Positions 2,763 to 51,911 of a stretch of 57,305 nt of DNA are shown in pieces. The stretch is taken from IMG/VR virus record IMGVR_UViG_3300021963_000150, positions 1 through 57,305 of that record. One strand, given 5' to 3'. Origin of the DNA: a virus. Made by a program: the position numbers and the translations under genes. Numbering within the stretch: the stretch's first letter is position 1; the number at the start of each line of letters is the position of its first letter. The notes under the pieces are model-generated. The model worked only from the letters and a program-made list of their open reading frames with translations, searched no databases and was not told the DNA's origin.

Positions 2763-4683
2763 TGATGTATTGATTTTTGATTTCCCCTACGACCCAGACC
2801 AAGTCAGTCAGGTCAAGGCGTTGCCCGGGGCTAAGTGGGACAAAGTCAGCAGGGTATGGCGTCTGCCGGTTTCCAGCCTGAAGCAGGTTCGTGACCTTGC
2901 GCTGAAATGGAACTTTGACATCTCCAACGAAGTCCTTGCCTTTGACCTGCCCACACACGTCAACCCTGGTGACGGCGTTTCTATTGAGGGCAAGTACCTC
3001 ATGATGTCATTTAGGTATGACCCAGTTATGGTTCGCTCCGTCAAACAGATACCCAGCGTTACTTGGGATGCCAAGACGAAGGCATGGAAAGCCCCGCTGA
3101 CGTCGATTGAGAGCGTCATCAAGTGGGCAACCACATTCAGACAGCCAATACCCGACCATGTTCGTGCCGAGGCTGACCGTATCTCTGCGTCATTGACTGA
3201 GATTCGTGAGGCAAGTCGCTCTGTTGATGCCGACATCTCCATACCTCGCCTCCACGGGGAGTTGCTCCCCTACCAACGGGCTGGGGTTTCTTACGCATCT
3301 CATACTCGTCGCTCGTTTATCGCAGACGAAATGGGGTTGGGTAAGACCATTCAGGCAATGGCGACACTTGAGTACATCCACTCACAGTATGGCGACGACG
3401 ACACAAGTCCCGTTTATCCGGCTGTCGTCGTATGCCCACCAAGCCTTGTCCTGAACTGGAAGAAGGAATACAACAAGTTCTTCCCCGACCTCATCGTTGA
3501 GACGGTTACCAACCGTAAAGAGATTCCGATGTTTGGCACATACGACGTGCTTGTCGTTGGCTACTCCAACATCACGGCATGGGAGAAGCAACTCTGCAAT
3601 CACAACGCCTACGTTTTTGACGAGTCGCACTATTGCAAGTCCCGTGATGCCCAGCGAACCAAGTCAGCCAAGAAGATGACCAAGTCCAATAAGGACGCCG
3701 TTGTGCTCTGCCTGACGGGAACACCCGTTACCAACCGACCCGCGGAGTATGCACCGCAGTTGGACATCATGGGTCAGTTGGACAAGTTCGGTGGGTTGTG
3801 GGGCTTTTATCGTCGCTACTGCAATGCCTTCCAAGATAAGTGGGGGCAATGGCATCTTGAGGGTCACTCAAACCTTGAGGAACTCAACGATAAGTTGCGT
3901 GCTACTTGCTACATTCGTCGTACGAAAGACCAAGTGATGTCTGAATTACCGCCAGTTATCCACGATGAGGTCGTCGTCGACGGGGCTCCGGCAGTAATGA
4001 AGGAGTACAAAAAGGCTGAATCAGACATCGTTGCCTACCTTGTTGAGAGGGCAAAGCAAATTGCCGAAGAACTTGGCTTGCCTGTCGGTGCGGCTGGGGT
4101 AATGGCTCGCCTTAAGGCGGAAGCCAATGAGCATCTTGTTCGTATGAGCGTATTACGCAAGATTGCTGCACGCGCCAAGATGCCCATCGTTGAGGAGTGG
4201 GTGGATGCGCGTATTGCCGATGGCAAGAAGGTTGTTATCGCGGCTCATCACAGAGACATCGTGGACATGCTTGCGAGCAGGTATGGCGGGCTAAAGATTC
4301 AGGGCGGCATGGATGTAGAGGCAGTAGAGGAAGCCAAGCATAAATTCCAGACTCTCCCCGTAGGGGCGGCTCCAGTCATTGTGTTGTCCATTCAGGCCGC
4401 GAAGACGGGACATACGTTGACGGCCGCCCAGGATGTCCTATTCGTGGAGTTGCCATGGACTCCAGCCGATGTTGACCAGACCTACAGTCGTTGTCACCGC
4501 ATTGGGCAGAAGGGTTCAGTAACTTCCACCTACATGCTTGCCTCAGGGACGATTGACGAAGAAATTTATTCTCTAGTTGAACGGAAGCGTGCTGTTGTTG
4601 GCAAGGCGACAGAAGGAGAAATCGTCTTTGACGACAATGATTCCGTTGCGAACCTCGTACTCAGATTAATCAATCTGGACTGA
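2701..4683 (+). CDS. SNF2-family helicase with two N-terminal HARP-like repeats
   Basis: The 660-residue protein has two related N-terminal units (about 17-76 and 95-150) of the form FxYDPxxxxxVKxxPxxxWD...W..P, resembling the HARP domain of SMARCAL1-type annealing helicases. The ATPase follows: Walker A DEMGLGKT near residue 209, DESH near 307, TGTP near 336, and helicase motif VI (CHRIGQKG) near 597. Such enzymes translocate on duplex or branched DNA and rewind or remodel forks; phage versions are thought to act in replication or recombination. It ends the plus operon and faces the minus-strand gene ending at 4733. Family assignment is firm; annealing activity is inferred. Confidence 0.92.
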   Translation: MKNSSPQPSGTPQQSILYLADDVLIFDFPYDPDQVSQVKALPGAKWDKVSRVWRLPVSSLKQVRDLALKWNFDISNEVLAFDLPTHVNPGDGVSIEGKYLMMSFRYDPVMVRSVKQIPSVTWDAKTKAWKAPLTSIESVIKWATTFRQPIPDHVRAEADRISASLTEIREASRSVDADISIPRLHGELLPYQRAGVSYASHTRRSFIADEMGLGKTIQAMATLEYIHSQYGDDDTSPVYPAVVVCPPSLVLNWKKEYNKFFPDLIVETVTNRKEIPMFGTYDVLVVGYSNITAWEKQLCNHNAYVFDESHYCKSRDAQRTKSAKKMTKSNKDAVVLCLTGTPVTNRPAEYAPQLDIMGQLDKFGGLWGFYRRYCNAFQDKWGQWHLEGHSNLEELNDKLRATCYIRRTKDQVMSELPPVIHDEVVVDGAPAVMKEYKKAESDIVAYLVERAKQIAEELGLPVGAAGVMARLKAEANEHLVRMSVLRKIAARAKMPIVEEWVDARIADGKKVVIAAHHRDIVDMLASRYGGLKIQGGMDVEAVEEAKHKFQTLPVGAAPVIVLSIQAAKTGHTLTAAQDVLFVELPWTPADVDQTYSRCHRIGQKGSVTSTYMLASGTIDEEIYSLVERKRAVVGKATEGEIVFDDNDSVANLVLRLINLD

Positions 4684-4686
4684 GTG

Positions 4687-4700
4687 CTTTCCGCCACCGT
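4687..4700 (-). repeat. Dispersed ACGGTGGCGGAAAG element (only minus-strand copy)
   Basis: Exact 14-mer in the 49-bp gap between convergent genes. All other copies in the window read on the plus strand. Confidence 0.85.
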
Positions 4701-4732
4701 AAACCCTTGAGGTTATTGGATTGCCTTAGCCT

Positions 4733-4975
4733 TTAGAAAGGGTGTGCCCCGCGAAACGGATAGCGGTTGCCTTCTTGGTCATTGACATCCACCTGCCCAC
4801 CGACACCACGGGTTTCGGCAAGACGATTGGCCATGAGGTTCTCTTCTTTGTTGAAGAAAAGGCACGGCTCCGACTCCATAAGGGCACGTACGACCGTAGA
4901 GATTTGGATGTTTGTGCCCGACTTCCCCTGCTCTCTACTGTATTCCTCAATGTCGTAGGTGTCTCTGTTGGTCAT
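4733..4975 (-). CDS. Hypothetical protein, 80 aa
   Basis: Small mixed-charge protein without a recognised family. The ATG is preceded by TAGTCT and a 6-base gap, a TANNNT -10 hexamer placed as in actinobacterial leaderless promoters, and there is no Shine-Dalgarno site. It is alone between the SNF2 gene (convergent) and the 5148-5854 pair. Confidence 0.6.
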   Translation of the reverse strand: MTNRDTYDIEEYSREQGKSGTNIQISTVVRALMESEPCLFFNKEENLMANRLAETRGVGGQVDVNDQEGNRYPFRGAHPF

Positions 4976-5108
4976 GCCGCAAGACTACGGCAATGAATAG
5001 AGCATTACGCAAGGGAGCGACTACGGGTTGCAATAAAGTTTGTGAATTGTAGCGTTTTGCTGTTGCTGGAACTACAAGACAATAAGTAGTGTGCATTCCG
5101 AAGGCGTT

Positions 5109-19944: not shown

Positions 19945-20320
19945 CTCATCTCGAGGGGGTGTCGTTACTAATCTCGAGCGGTGACTCGACGCCTCGAGTG
20001 CCCCATGTCGACTCGTGGGCAGTCCCGGGACGGCTCGATGACTCGATGACTCGAGCGCTCGAGCGGTCGGGCGGTCGAGTGGGCAGTCTTGGAATGGCTC
20101 GAGTGGTCGAGCGGTCGATGACTCGAGCGGTCGACATGACTCGTCGAAAAAAGACGGGACTGGACGGACTCGAGCGCAGTTGCTGAGTGGTCGAGTGGTC
20201 GAGTGGTCGAGGACTCGAGTGGTCGAGTGGGCAGTCCCGGGACGACCCGACTCGAGCGGTCGATGGCTCGAGCGGTCGATGGCTGACTCGACTCGATGAT
20301 TTGGTTGCTCGAGCGAGAAG
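19945..20320. repeat. GTCGAG/CTCGAG-rich low-complexity tract
   Basis: About 370 bases made largely of GGTCGAGTGG, GGTCGATGACTCGAG and CTCGAGCGGTCGA words, many about 10 bases apart, with three AGTCCCG/GGGAC sites embedded. Open frames here (for example MVEWSSG...) have no coding character. The 19768-19944 part holds nothing recognised. Confidence 0.75.
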
Positions 20321-20344
20321 ACGGGACTTTCCCGTCAAAACGCA

Positions 20345-20374
20345 AAAAACCGCCCGTGTGGGGCGGTGTGTCTG
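20345..20374 (-). terminator. Rho-independent terminator (minus strand)
   Basis: On the minus strand CCGCCC-CACA-GGGCGG followed by TTTTTT; ends the transcript of paralogue B at 20506. Confidence 0.85.
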
Positions 20375-27402: not shown

Positions 27403-27693
27403 ATGACAACAATCGACGACATCATCGAACGAAACAAACAAGCGGGACATCATTTCTTCGACAGCATCACGATGGCGTGGTTCGACAGCAAAATTTACCC
27501 ACAGGTATTTGGGGATTATTTCGTTACCTCGGAAGACCCACATCTGCCCAGTTCCGTGCGTCGTTACACCGTTCGTCAAATTGACTGGAACACGGGGGCG
27601 GTCAATACCGTGGGTAGATTTATGGGTCACTCGACGCTACGCGGGGCTTATCAGCACGCAGAACGGCTGTCCGTTGGGGAAAATGTAAAGTGA
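27403..27693 (+). CDS. Conserved-type small phage protein, 96 aa
   Basis: Plus-strand gene in a minus-strand region. N-terminus MTTIDDIIERN..AG.H.FD, YFVTSE and RRYTVRQ segments match a small uncharacterised family common in actinobacterial phages and plasmids. GATACT, 7 bases before ATG 27403, could be a -10. The antisense frame 27349-27630 is rejected. Confidence 0.78.
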   Translation: MTTIDDIIERNKQAGHHFFDSITMAWFDSKIYPQVFGDYFVTSEDPHLPSSVRRYTVRQIDWNTGAVNTVGRFMGHSTLRGAYQHAERLSVGENVK

Positions 27694-28069
27694 GCACCTT
27701 TTACGACATGCTCAGGTCGGCGTGACTCCTACTGATACGGCTTCTCAAGGTCACGACAACCCGTATCGCACCGCTGTTTCCCACAGCAGTATGGGGGAGG
27801 ACAGAGGGAGCGACCCTCTGCCTGTCAAGCAACGCCTACCTTGCGCCCGTAGCCTAATTTGTCGCCCCACGCGACCGGCTACACACGGAGGGGCTTTCTC
27901 GGCATACGAGACTCGCTGTTCTCCCCCGATGCGGGAGACTTCGCTACCCTGTTACGACTTACAGGTCGTAACCCCAAAACGGCTGTAACCCTTTTGGGTG
28001 GTTCTCTTACGAGGGTTTCCCCTCCGCTCTGAGCCTAAAAGACTGTTTAGAGTCGCTCAGACGACTTGT
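27692..28069 (-). ncRNA. Highly structured non-coding RNA of about 380 nt
   Basis: A promoter element (28070-28103) identical in design to those of the neighbouring genes points into a stretch with no ORF but at least ten hairpins. Helices (top-strand positions): 28028-28034/28055-28061 enclosing 28035-28039/28046-28050; 28011-28015/28020-28024; 27973-27979/27992-27998; 27951-27958/27965-27972; 27921-27925/27933-27937; 27849-27854/27877-27882 enclosing 27861-27865/27871-27875; 27802-27808/27814-27820; 27773-27777/27783-27787. Near the 3' end 27721-27726/27750-27755 and 27734-27740/27761-27767 interlock as a pseudoknot. A last hairpin (27692-27713) may be the terminator. Not tmRNA or RNase P by visible motifs. 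Predicted +1 is A at 28069; ends are inferred. Confidence 0.75.
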
Positions 28070-28274
28070 AACTACCCTGTCCCCAGTCGTGCCGTAAGGA
28101 TTTGGGAGTTAGTGATGGGTAATCATACTCGGCGGTAATGAGTGCTGGCACAACCCCCAGCCTACGACCCTTGTTGTCCCACCACTCCCACGCATCACGC
28201 TTGGAGGCGAATGGTCCGTAGAGTCCCGTTGGCGTTACTCGCTCATCGGCAAAGAAGTATCCCTTGCGAGTCAC
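28047..28274 (-). CDS. Hypothetical protein, 75 aa
   Basis: GTG 28274 overlaps the previous stop (GTGA). Contains GLYGPFASKRDAWEWWD. Its 3' end runs through the ncRNA promoter and about 23 bases into the ncRNA. Confidence 0.68.
   Translation of the reverse strand: MTRKGYFFADERVTPTGLYGPFASKRDAWEWWDNKGRRLGVVPALITAEYDYPSLTPKSLRHDWGQGSYKSSERL
28070..28103 (-). promoter_or_regulatory. Leaderless-type element promoter driving the structured ncRNA
   Basis: AAATCCTTAC, 10 bp, GGGACAG, 7 bp, then A at +1 with no start codon. It shows the element is a transcription signal rather than a translation signal. Confidence 0.82.
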
Positions 28275-28711
28275 TCCTCCCCCTTCCATAGGTCGTCCTC
28301 GGAGAGGAGAGCCGTTGCCTGCTCAATGGCATCGGTCAGGCTGTGGTGAACGCAGTCCAACCAGCCAGCGTCCCCGACATTGTGGTCGGTCGCATACAGG
28401 TCAAACCAAGAGTTGTTCACCCACTCAATGCGTCCCTCCTCGGAGGCTTGGAAGATGTCGGCATCGTTGTTGATGCCGTGTTCCGTCCAACGGTCGCAGT
28501 AGCGAATGATGGAGGGGTCGTTGGTGCGGTCGGCAAGGTCGTACACGAGGACACGCATCTCGCCATCGGCAAAGATGTCTATCTCACGGTCGCCGTTGCT
28601 CACGGTCACAACAAGGTCGTGTGCCGACTGGTAGGTGTACCAAGCGGAGTCCTCACGCCCTTGCGAACGCTCGTCAGGCTGATGCCAAGTGATGTTGATG
28701 GTGGTGGTCAT
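28271..28711 (-). CDS. Hypothetical protein, 146 aa
   Basis: Beta-strand-rich N-terminal half (DLVVTVSNGDREIDIFADGE) and acidic tail. ATG fixed by promoter; GTGA overlap with 28047-28274. Confidence 0.8.
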   Translation of the reverse strand: MTTTINITWHQPDERSQGREDSAWYTYQSAHDLVVTVSNGDREIDIFADGEMRVLVYDLADRTNDPSIIRYCDRWTEHGINNDADIFQASEEGRIEWVNNSWFDLYATDHNVGDAGWLDCVHHSLTDAIEQATALLSEDDLWKGEE

Positions 28712-38984: not shown

Positions 38985-39866
38985 CTTGGGCTTTGCGTCC
39001 TCAACCGCTTTGGCGTGTGCCTCGGGGATGTGCGGAATCGGAATGTAATGGGCGTGTCCACCGTGTTCCAGTACCCACGGCTTCGGGGGCAACTTGCCGT
39101 TGTGGGCAAAGTAAGCCACCTCAAACCAATGCGACAGGAAAATCTTGGTGGCATAGCGACGGGCTTGTAGTTCTATCCGTCCCGCTGGCAACATTCCCCG
39201 TTCCAGCGTCGCTCGCAAGTCCTTGTCTCGGATGTTCTTGGAGTTCAGGGTTTCTTTGGCGAGGTCGGCGTAGTCCCCAGCCTCGTTCTTGGCGAGGCGA
39301 CGAGCCTTGTCTTGGGCGTACAACTTGCCGTAGAAGCAGTCATCTCGCTTGTGGAACTTCATAAACGAGTCGCCAATCTTGTAGCACAGAAGTTTGAGTT
39401 CGGCATTCCACGGTCGCTTCTCGCCCTTGTCCCACTTGGTATTCGGGTCTAGACCGGCGTATCGCCAAATTTGTCCGACCGTTTCCACCCGTGAGATGTC
39501 AATGTGGGCGAGTAGCCCCGCACTGATGACATGACCAATGCCGTACTGCTCCATTGCCCAACGCCCAGCGGTGTGTGCTTCGGCAAACTTCTTTAGAGCA
39601 GGCTTGACAGATTCCTCCAACACAGCCATCTGAACATGGAAGTGGTCAATGATGGTGTTGTCATCGGCGGTGAGCGAGGCTTTCTGATTGCCCATACCGA
39701 CTCGCATCTTCTGTAGGCGGTAGTAGAAGTCCACCAACGCCCTTGCTCCTGACGCATCCAGCGTCCCTGCCTTTACGAGGAGGTCTTTCTCTAGTCGCTT
39801 GGCGACCTCGGGGGCGAGAAAGTCCTCTGTCTCCATGAGGAGACTGTCGTAGTAGGAGTCGGTCAC
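38979..39866 (-). CDS. IS110 Transposase_20-like helix-hairpin-helix protein
   Basis: GTG 39866 overlaps the previous stop. The 295-residue protein has YGIGHVISAGLLAHIDI and QIWRYAGLDPNTKWDKGEKRPWN, closely following the C-terminal domain of IS110/IS116 transposases (GIGPVTAAxLLAxI...YAGLxP). No N-terminal DEDD RuvC-type domain and no flanking repeats are apparent, so it is probably a phage DNA-binding protein derived from, or sharing a fold with, that domain. Confidence 0.75.
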   Translation of the reverse strand: MTDSYYDSLLMETEDFLAPEVAKRLEKDLLVKAGTLDASGARALVDFYYRLQKMRVGMGNQKASLTADDNTIIDHFHVQMAVLEESVKPALKKFAEAHTAGRWAMEQYGIGHVISAGLLAHIDISRVETVGQIWRYAGLDPNTKWDKGEKRPWNAELKLLCYKIGDSFMKFHKRDDCFYGKLYAQDKARRLAKNEAGDYADLAKETLNSKNIRDKDLRATLERGMLPAGRIELQARRYATKIFLSHWFEVAYFAHNGKLPPKPWVLEHGGHAHYIPIPHIPEAHAKAVEDAKPKL

Positions 39867-51350: not shown

Positions 51351-51554
51351 GTGACTAAGAGTGATTGCTCACACGATAAAGATGTGACTCATTACGAGTT
51401 CGGGTAGACGGCAATCGTGTTGGCGAGACAATGAGACACAATGTGTCCACTTGTATCACTATGTATGACTGTGTAATACAAGCGTCACTGTAAGTATGTA
51501 TGTGGTTATGTATGCGTAAACATACGGAACAATGTATGACCATACGGCATACGC
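51351..51554. other. AT-richer flank of the candidate origin
   Basis: No gene recognised. Contains TATGTATG and CATACGG words; composition falls toward A/T compared with the rest of the window. Confidence 0.4.
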
Positions 51555-51850
51555 AGTTGTGGATAACTTGTGAATAACTTGTGGACAACTTGTGAATAAC
51601 GAAGTGTAATAACTACTATTACTGTAGAACAATAGTTCAGGTTGTGGATAACTTTTATCTAACGAAGATAGACAAGGTGTTATCAACAGATTTATCAACA
51701 GGTTGTGGATAACTTATCAACAGGTTTATTCACAGATTGTGGATAAAGTAACAAGTTATCAACAGAATGAAAGCGGTTATCCACAAGTCCATAGGTGATT
51801 TCGGCAGTCCCGAGTATTGATTATCAACTTATCAACAGGGTTATCCACAT
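51555..51850. other. Candidate replication origin with dense DnaA boxes
   Basis: Perfect DnaA boxes at 51558, 51643, 51704, 51738, 51777 and 51841 (both orientations) and at least nine one-mismatch boxes (TTATCAACA, TGTGAATAA, TTATTCACA, TGTGGACAA) in 300 AT-rich bases. This density is what bacterial and plasmid DnaA-dependent origins look like. No iteron-binding Rep gene is adjacent. Confidence 0.75.
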
Positions 51851-51851
51851 C

Positions 51852-51911
51852 GAACGAATGTTTTCCGAACAGATGTTCGGTGCGAACAGGTGTACGACGA
51901 ACAAATGTTCG
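51852..51911. promoter_or_regulatory. Four tandem LexA-like boxes
   Basis: GAACGAATGTTT, GAACAGATGTTC, GAACAGGTGTAC and GAACAAATGTTC at 51852, 51867, 51884 and 51899 (steps 15, 17, 15). Two are perfect GAAC-N4-GTTC. They directly follow the DnaA-box cluster. Confidence 0.6.

Follow-up and report, generated by a model that had tools for sequence, protein, structure and literature searches.

Genetic Environment and General Features of the RNA

The stretch of DNA analyzed here (the window) comprises 57,305 nucleotides of the virus IMGVR_UViG_3300021963_000150 and carries, on its minus strand from 28070 to 27692, a structured phage RNA of about 380 nt. A start-associated element precedes this RNA, an 80-codon open reading frame runs into its 5′ part, and a DUF7447 gene meets its 3′ end (Table 1). 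As the latter gene is convergent and overlaps the RNA, no feature of the same direction follows the terminal pseudoknot.

Table 1. Features of the RNA locus and its surroundings, given in window coordinates.
Feature	Position	Strand	Basis or remark
Convergent gene, DUF7447 (PF24239)	27403..27693	+	Stop codon overlaps 3′ end of the ncRNA by 2 nt
3′-terminal compact H-type pseudoknot, 29 nt	27692..27720	-	Member of a recurrent phage motif
Structured body, no known family	27721..28009	-	Folding z −5.06 (27692–28009), stem statistics
H-type pseudoknot of the first-pass annotation, 7 bp + 6 bp	27721..27767	-	Stem search, one sequence
Perfect 7-bp hairpin CAGAGGG-UCGCU-CCCUCUG	27802..27820	-	Stem search
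GUAGCC/GGCUAC helix enclosing GUCGC...GCGAC hairpin	27849..27882	-	Folding and stem search, one sequence
Two adjacent hairpins, 27998–27992/27979–27973 and 27972–27965/27958–27951	27951..27998	-	Stem search
Pistol self-cleaving ribozyme, full length	28005..28066	-	RF02679, 54.2 bits, model positions 1–68 of 68
Predicted cleavage site G28010^U28009, GU at P3/P2 junction	28009..28010	-	Alignment and rule (PMC4604425)
80-codon ORF, reality uncertain	28047..28289	-	Overlaps the element and first 20 nt of Pistol
Start-associated element AAATCCTTAC-N12-GACAG-N7	28070..28103	-	Followed by Pistol, not by a start codon

A first-pass annotation, made from the letters alone, had proposed a new structured ncRNA here. 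Its structured nature is borne out by an excess of stems, by the folding statistics and by the position of its pseudoknot. The region 27692–28066 contains 10 perfect stems of at least 6 bp, while 2.1 ± 1.3 are expected from 500 dinucleotide shuffles, none of which reached this number (maximum 7). Four crossing pairs of such stems were counted against a null mean of 0.26, a value reached by 0.3% of the shuffles. Comparison of minimum free energies with those of shuffled sequences yielded a z of −5.2 for 27680–28110 and the value listed in Table 1 for the body alone, the genome background being −0.89 (mean of 360 windows, SD 1.46). The “ten perfect hairpins” of the annotation thus exist as perfect stems, but two or three of them are alternative or tertiary pairings, so that the count was generous. 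Both strands fold well (z −5.06 vs. −3.97 for the opposite one), and the strand assignment therefore rests on the ribozyme, the start-associated element and the 3′ pseudoknot. Elsewhere in the window, the strongest folding signal (z −7.9) belongs to a block of CTCGAG/GGTCGA repeats at 19950–20310, which is followed by a GC-rich hairpin at 20340–20370. Dense DnaA-box-like repeats (TTATCCACA, TTATCAACA, TGTGGATAA) at 51550–51860 likely represent a replication origin, and a strong folding signal lies close to them (z about −5.9).

The statement that no ORF crosses the RNA is not literally true. An 88-codon ORF with a GTG start (27722–27988, plus strand) is nested inside the region, and the 80-codon ORF extends into the 5′ half of the ribozyme. 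The former has a codon score of −0.36, which is typical of wrong-frame ORFs (median −0.49; genuine genes +0.43), and looks non-coding; the latter, for which no homologue was found, has an ambiguous score of −0.13. Neither ARAGORN nor Rfam detected a tmRNA or RNase P signature in this RNA, just as the annotation had it. There is good support for an autonomous phage RNA, structured and non-coding, that is encoded on the minus strand.

The Start-Associated Element

Forty-six copies of the 33-bp element are present in the window, most of them on the minus strand, and almost all read AAATCC-N16-GACAG-N7-ATG, that is, they are located at a fixed distance before an ATG. No copy scored in mononucleotide-shuffled controls. 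Two weaker copies (18008 and 20695) lack an in-register ATG, yet run into sequence containing GTG/ATG. The copy at 28070–28103, correctly described earlier as having no start codon, runs into TACAAG and the ribozyme, which starts 4 nt after it. Since it is hard to see what a ribosome-binding feature would do before a ribozyme, we infer that the element is the promoter of the ncRNA. The 33-bp elements in general are possibly promoters for a phage-specific polymerase producing leaderless mRNAs. IMG/VR records bearing the element comprise the same phage (L309, 99.99% identical over 40.7–54.8 kb), a relative (G010) that ends before the ncRNA region, and a single-copy match (L311).

A Pistol Ribozyme Forms the 5′ End

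The first 62 nt of the RNA (28066–28005) constitute a Pistol ribozyme, the score of which lies well above the gathering threshold of 34.5 bits (E 4e-7; E 7.5e-9 in a local search). The RNA as a whole can thus no longer be called new: a match to a known Rfam family, which had been named as a finding that would speak against novelty, exists for the Pistol part, whereas the body and the 3′ pseudoknot are without any Rfam match. The ribozyme had been overlooked, as had the 6-bp loop–loop contact and the additional small 3′ pseudoknot described below. In the Pistol alignment, all conserved core letters are present, P3 has 5 bp and a GAAA loop, and the three stems are complemented by the pseudoknot between the P1 loop and the junction (UCUGAGC/GCUCAGA). 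Pistol ribozymes cleave at a GU where the right shoulders of P3 and P2 meet (PMC4604425). Here, the junction reads CCCUCG^UAAGA, and cleavage is predicted to leave an RNA of 318 nt with a 5′-OH. While the match over the whole model, the phage context and the GU junction are those of the family (RF02679), the placement is different: the ribozyme immediately follows a phage start element and forms the head of a long ncRNA, whereas in actinophage relatives it comes after a coding sequence.

Phages of Curtobacterium, Microbacterium, and Gordonia contain close Pistol sequences, most of them located at, or shortly behind, the stop codon of a coding sequence. Such placement speaks for an alternative in which the main task of the ribozyme is to process or destroy the 3′ end of a preceding mRNA, here that of ORF 28047–28289, the hairpins being nothing but the boundary to the convergent gene. 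The Pistols of Curtobacterium and Microbacterium phages overlap the upstream stop codon or adjoin it, the 80-codon ORF runs into the ribozyme of the window, and 45 out of 121 non-redundant Pistol loci have an ORF of 60–70 codons or more within 100 nt downstream. We nevertheless consider this alternative unlikely: a dedicated element directly precedes the ribozyme, 318 nt of dense structure including pseudoknots far exceed the needs of a terminator, no intrinsic-terminator match adjoins the region, and the ORF is the one without homologue.

Scanning IMG/VR with a Pistol pattern retrieved 59 stretches and at least 120 with a looser version; by a crude count, 30 of the 121 non-redundant ribozymes precede 300 nt or more that are free of ORFs of 60–70 codons, and the RNA of the window ranks among the strongest of the set by folding score (z −5.8). 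Nine loci (L021, L030, L037, L038, L042, L047, L050, L052, and L053) share a conserved RNA behind Pistol that has no Rfam entry. It is composed of a CUGUGAAGG...ACACAG hairpin, a hairpin with a palindromic loop and then ACAAAAAACCGC, and every occurrence of its core motif in all loci examined lies 54–164 nt after a Pistol. RNAalifold lends support to the first hairpin only (family A). Judged by eye, the palindromic loop keeps its palindromy while its sequence changes (UGAUCA, UAGCUA, AUCGAU), which suggests homodimeric kissing loops. A structured phage RNA headed by Pistol thus seems to be an arrangement that recurs, and the window provides one example, in which the body is of its own kind. 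Two further observations concern Pistol loci. In L041, two ribozymes lie 326 nt apart, and such tandem ribozymes would cut out an RNA unit. Judged by eye, P3 appears to contain inserts of about 70–150 nt with conserved structure of their own in Microbacterium phage Count (L007, 1502–1700) and likewise in L020, L021, L025, L047, and L053.

The Body of the RNA

Several 7-bp hairpins are found in the body. The interlocked pair reported earlier is exact to the base (GAUACGG 27767–27761/CCGUAUC 27740–27734 crossing CGUGAC 27755–27750/GUCACG 27726–27721). The two hairpins at 27951–27998 adjoin each other with no nucleotide in between, and their loops are complementary over 6 nt (UUACAG 27988–27983 with CUGUAA 27964–27959), so that a kissing loop may form, either within one molecule or between two.

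Relatives of the body were sought by several routes. Rfam gave no match even at E ≤ 10, and distant blastn comparison with phages found Pistol only. Blastn and nhmmer searches against more than 100 Pistol-bearing loci returned chance-level matches and the 3′ motif only, and a DNA pattern for the kissing-loop hairpins had no match in viral_contigs. Ten records encoding a primase relative contained neither Pistol nor the body, synteny via DUF7447 led to one contig, in which a coding region was found and the RNA was absent, and synteny via the neighboring 80-aa ORF yielded no relative. The fold of the body therefore rests on one sequence. Covariation in homologues, proposed at the outset as a check, is strong for the 3′ pseudoknot, while the body yielded no homologues to align.

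The first-pass annotation had likened the RNA to GOLLD and ROOL, phage ncRNAs that form nanocages (PMC12286853). This comparison is valid in kind, as all are ornate phage ncRNAs, but not in family, as no Rfam match emerged even at E ≤ 10. With GOLLD the RNA has in common that it is a large, ornate ncRNA of a phage or prophage with kissing loops; GOLLD, however, exceeds 800 nt, compared with about 318 nt after cleavage here, and is located in a tRNA island, whereas the only tRNA of the window is found at 39250. Multiple pseudoknots and a phage origin are shared with ROOL, which is about twice as long. Intermolecular kissing loops might let the RNA assemble into rings or cages comparable to those of GOLLD, ROOL, or the pRNA of phi29. 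Fully complementary 6-nt loops on hairpins with zero nucleotides between them would suit such a structure, as would the loop palindromes of GATC, AGCT, or ATCGAT type kept in the nine-member family. The same contact can, however, form within a single molecule as part of a three-way-junction fold, the palindromes were judged by eye in nine sequences, and Rfam sees neither GOLLD nor ROOL in this RNA, all of which makes self-assembly distinctly improbable in our opinion.

A Covarying Pseudoknot at the 3′ End

The pseudoknot that ends the RNA came to light when weak matches between the body and other Pistol loci turned out to lie on this motif. Its stems are P1 (CGAC/GUCG, 27719–27716/27707–27704) and P2 (GAGCA/UGCUC, 27713–27709/27696–27692), connected by the loops L1 (CU), L2 (U), and L3 (UAAAAGG). 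The consensus of the motif is NNNCCUGRGCAUGN'N'N'UAAAACUGCYC. We searched with a pattern that prescribed the loops, P2, and a single pair of P1 while leaving the other P1 positions free; it is worth about 19 base equivalents and allows four gap lengths, such that about 7 chance matches are expected in 257 Gb on both strands. The motif was found in at least 120 IMG/VR stretches (L189–L308) and in 66 stretches of bacterial genome assemblies (genome_contigs; L313–L378). Sequences bearing it come from many phyla, and named phages, matched by similarity, include cyanophage S-RIM4, Synechococcus phage S-EIVl, Mycobacterium phage Labelle, and Paracoccus phage ParMal1. Each of the three P1 pairs not prescribed by the pattern was scored in 134 copies and is present in 134, 133, and 107 of them, counts that are not weighted for relatedness, and 53 of 55 genome_contigs copies form at least two of the three free pairs. 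Among 44 diverse copies, 98% of cells pair, compared with 45% or less in slid versions, and the covariation score is 0.504 versus 0.122 after shuffling. P2 also exhibits an exchange of A-U for G-C.

No Rfam 15 family matched the pseudoknot at the gathering threshold or at E ≤ 5–10, and a text search of the literature for the motif sequence found no paper, although it may sit unnamed in large surveys of phage RNAs. Compact A-rich H-type pseudoknots are familiar from the preQ1-I class and the leader of T4 gene 32. The motif resembles these in its stems of 4 and 5 bp and in its A-rich third loop, but differs in having invariant letters of its own, in lacking an Rfam match and in occurring mainly after stop codons or before tRNAs.

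Genomic Setting and Possible Role of the Pseudoknot

In 97 copies, an upstream frame of 90 or more codons terminates within 200 nt, and 56 of these copies begin no more than 15 nt after its stop codon; the spacing is mostly 4–15 nt but extends up to 200. A simple count of ORFs places 92 out of 109 copies between genes of the motif's own direction and 8 between divergent genes, the latter being a poor fit to a pure 3′-end role. Eighteen of 132 copies have a tRNA gene 4–14 nt downstream and none has one upstream, and 17 of 19 motif-adjacent tRNAs are tRNA-Asp. With this spacing, the upstream RNA would carry the motif at its 3′ end after cleavage by RNase P. A linkage to tRNA genes is also known for the HDV-like theta ribozymes of gut phages, which are self-cleaving (PMC10879173); theta ribozymes belong to a class different from Pistol and have no match in the RNA of the window. 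L034 contains four terminal pseudoknots (4530–5082), one of them before tRNA-Lys, and tandem copies of this kind would delimit RNA units. Genes upstream of the motif include those for SSB/Gp2.5, Hsp20, capsid, sliding clamp, and DUF932, and annotated genes downstream mostly encode helicases, primase, and clamp loader. The SSB, capsid, Hsp20, and sliding clamp genes are probably strongly expressed, as is usual for these gene types.

Stop-codon readthrough was rejected as a function, because the distance to the stop varies widely and the copy in the window does not follow the end of an ORF. An intrinsic terminator fits poorly, as most copies lack a U-run behind them. With no gene of the same direction directly after it, the pseudoknot in the window can only serve the RNA upstream. 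Judged by its position, protection or setting of 3′ ends is its most likely role.

Two other proposals would have the RNA released at both ends. The pseudoknot could itself be a new RNA-processing device, either a tiny self-cleaving motif or a nuclease signal, that together with Pistol excises the 318-nt body from both sides, possibly for circularization or assembly of RNA particles, which we regard as very improbable. Alternatively, the 5′-OH left by Pistol and the 2′,3′-cyclic phosphate from a second cleavage could be joined by a ligase such as RtcB, giving a circular RNA. Pistol chemistry does yield the required 5′-OH and the related locus L041 has its pair of ribozymes; here, however, Rfam searches at E ≤ 10 uncovered no further ribozyme, either within the body or behind it, and the pseudoknot has no known catalytic activity, so that we give circularization very little credence.

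A Model for the Phage RNA

The sequence modules with their positions and statistics and the covariation of the 3′ pseudoknot are direct observations. The reading that we favor, and consider probable, is a stable phage ncRNA trimmed by Pistol and capped by the pseudoknot, for which we infer transcription start, cleavage, stability, and function as follows. Transcription from the phage's own start element would begin at or just before Pistol, which, given its intact consensus, should fold co-transcriptionally and cut between G28010 and U28009. This cut would remove the leader with the 5′ triphosphate and release the RNA of about 318 nt, which may then fold compactly by means of the pair of kissing-loop hairpins and the H-type pseudoknot. 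The compact pseudoknot at the end would most likely block 3′-to-5′ decay or fix the 3′ end, and the resulting RNA would be long-lived and untranslated and might serve as a scaffold, decoy, or sponge.

Pistol would thereby obtain a concrete and testable role in phages, namely maturation of the 5′ end of a phage ncRNA. Because the covarying 3′ motif, absent from Rfam, follows stop codons, often those of genes that are usually strongly expressed, it suggests a general way in which phages may set the 3′ ends or the stability of their RNAs.
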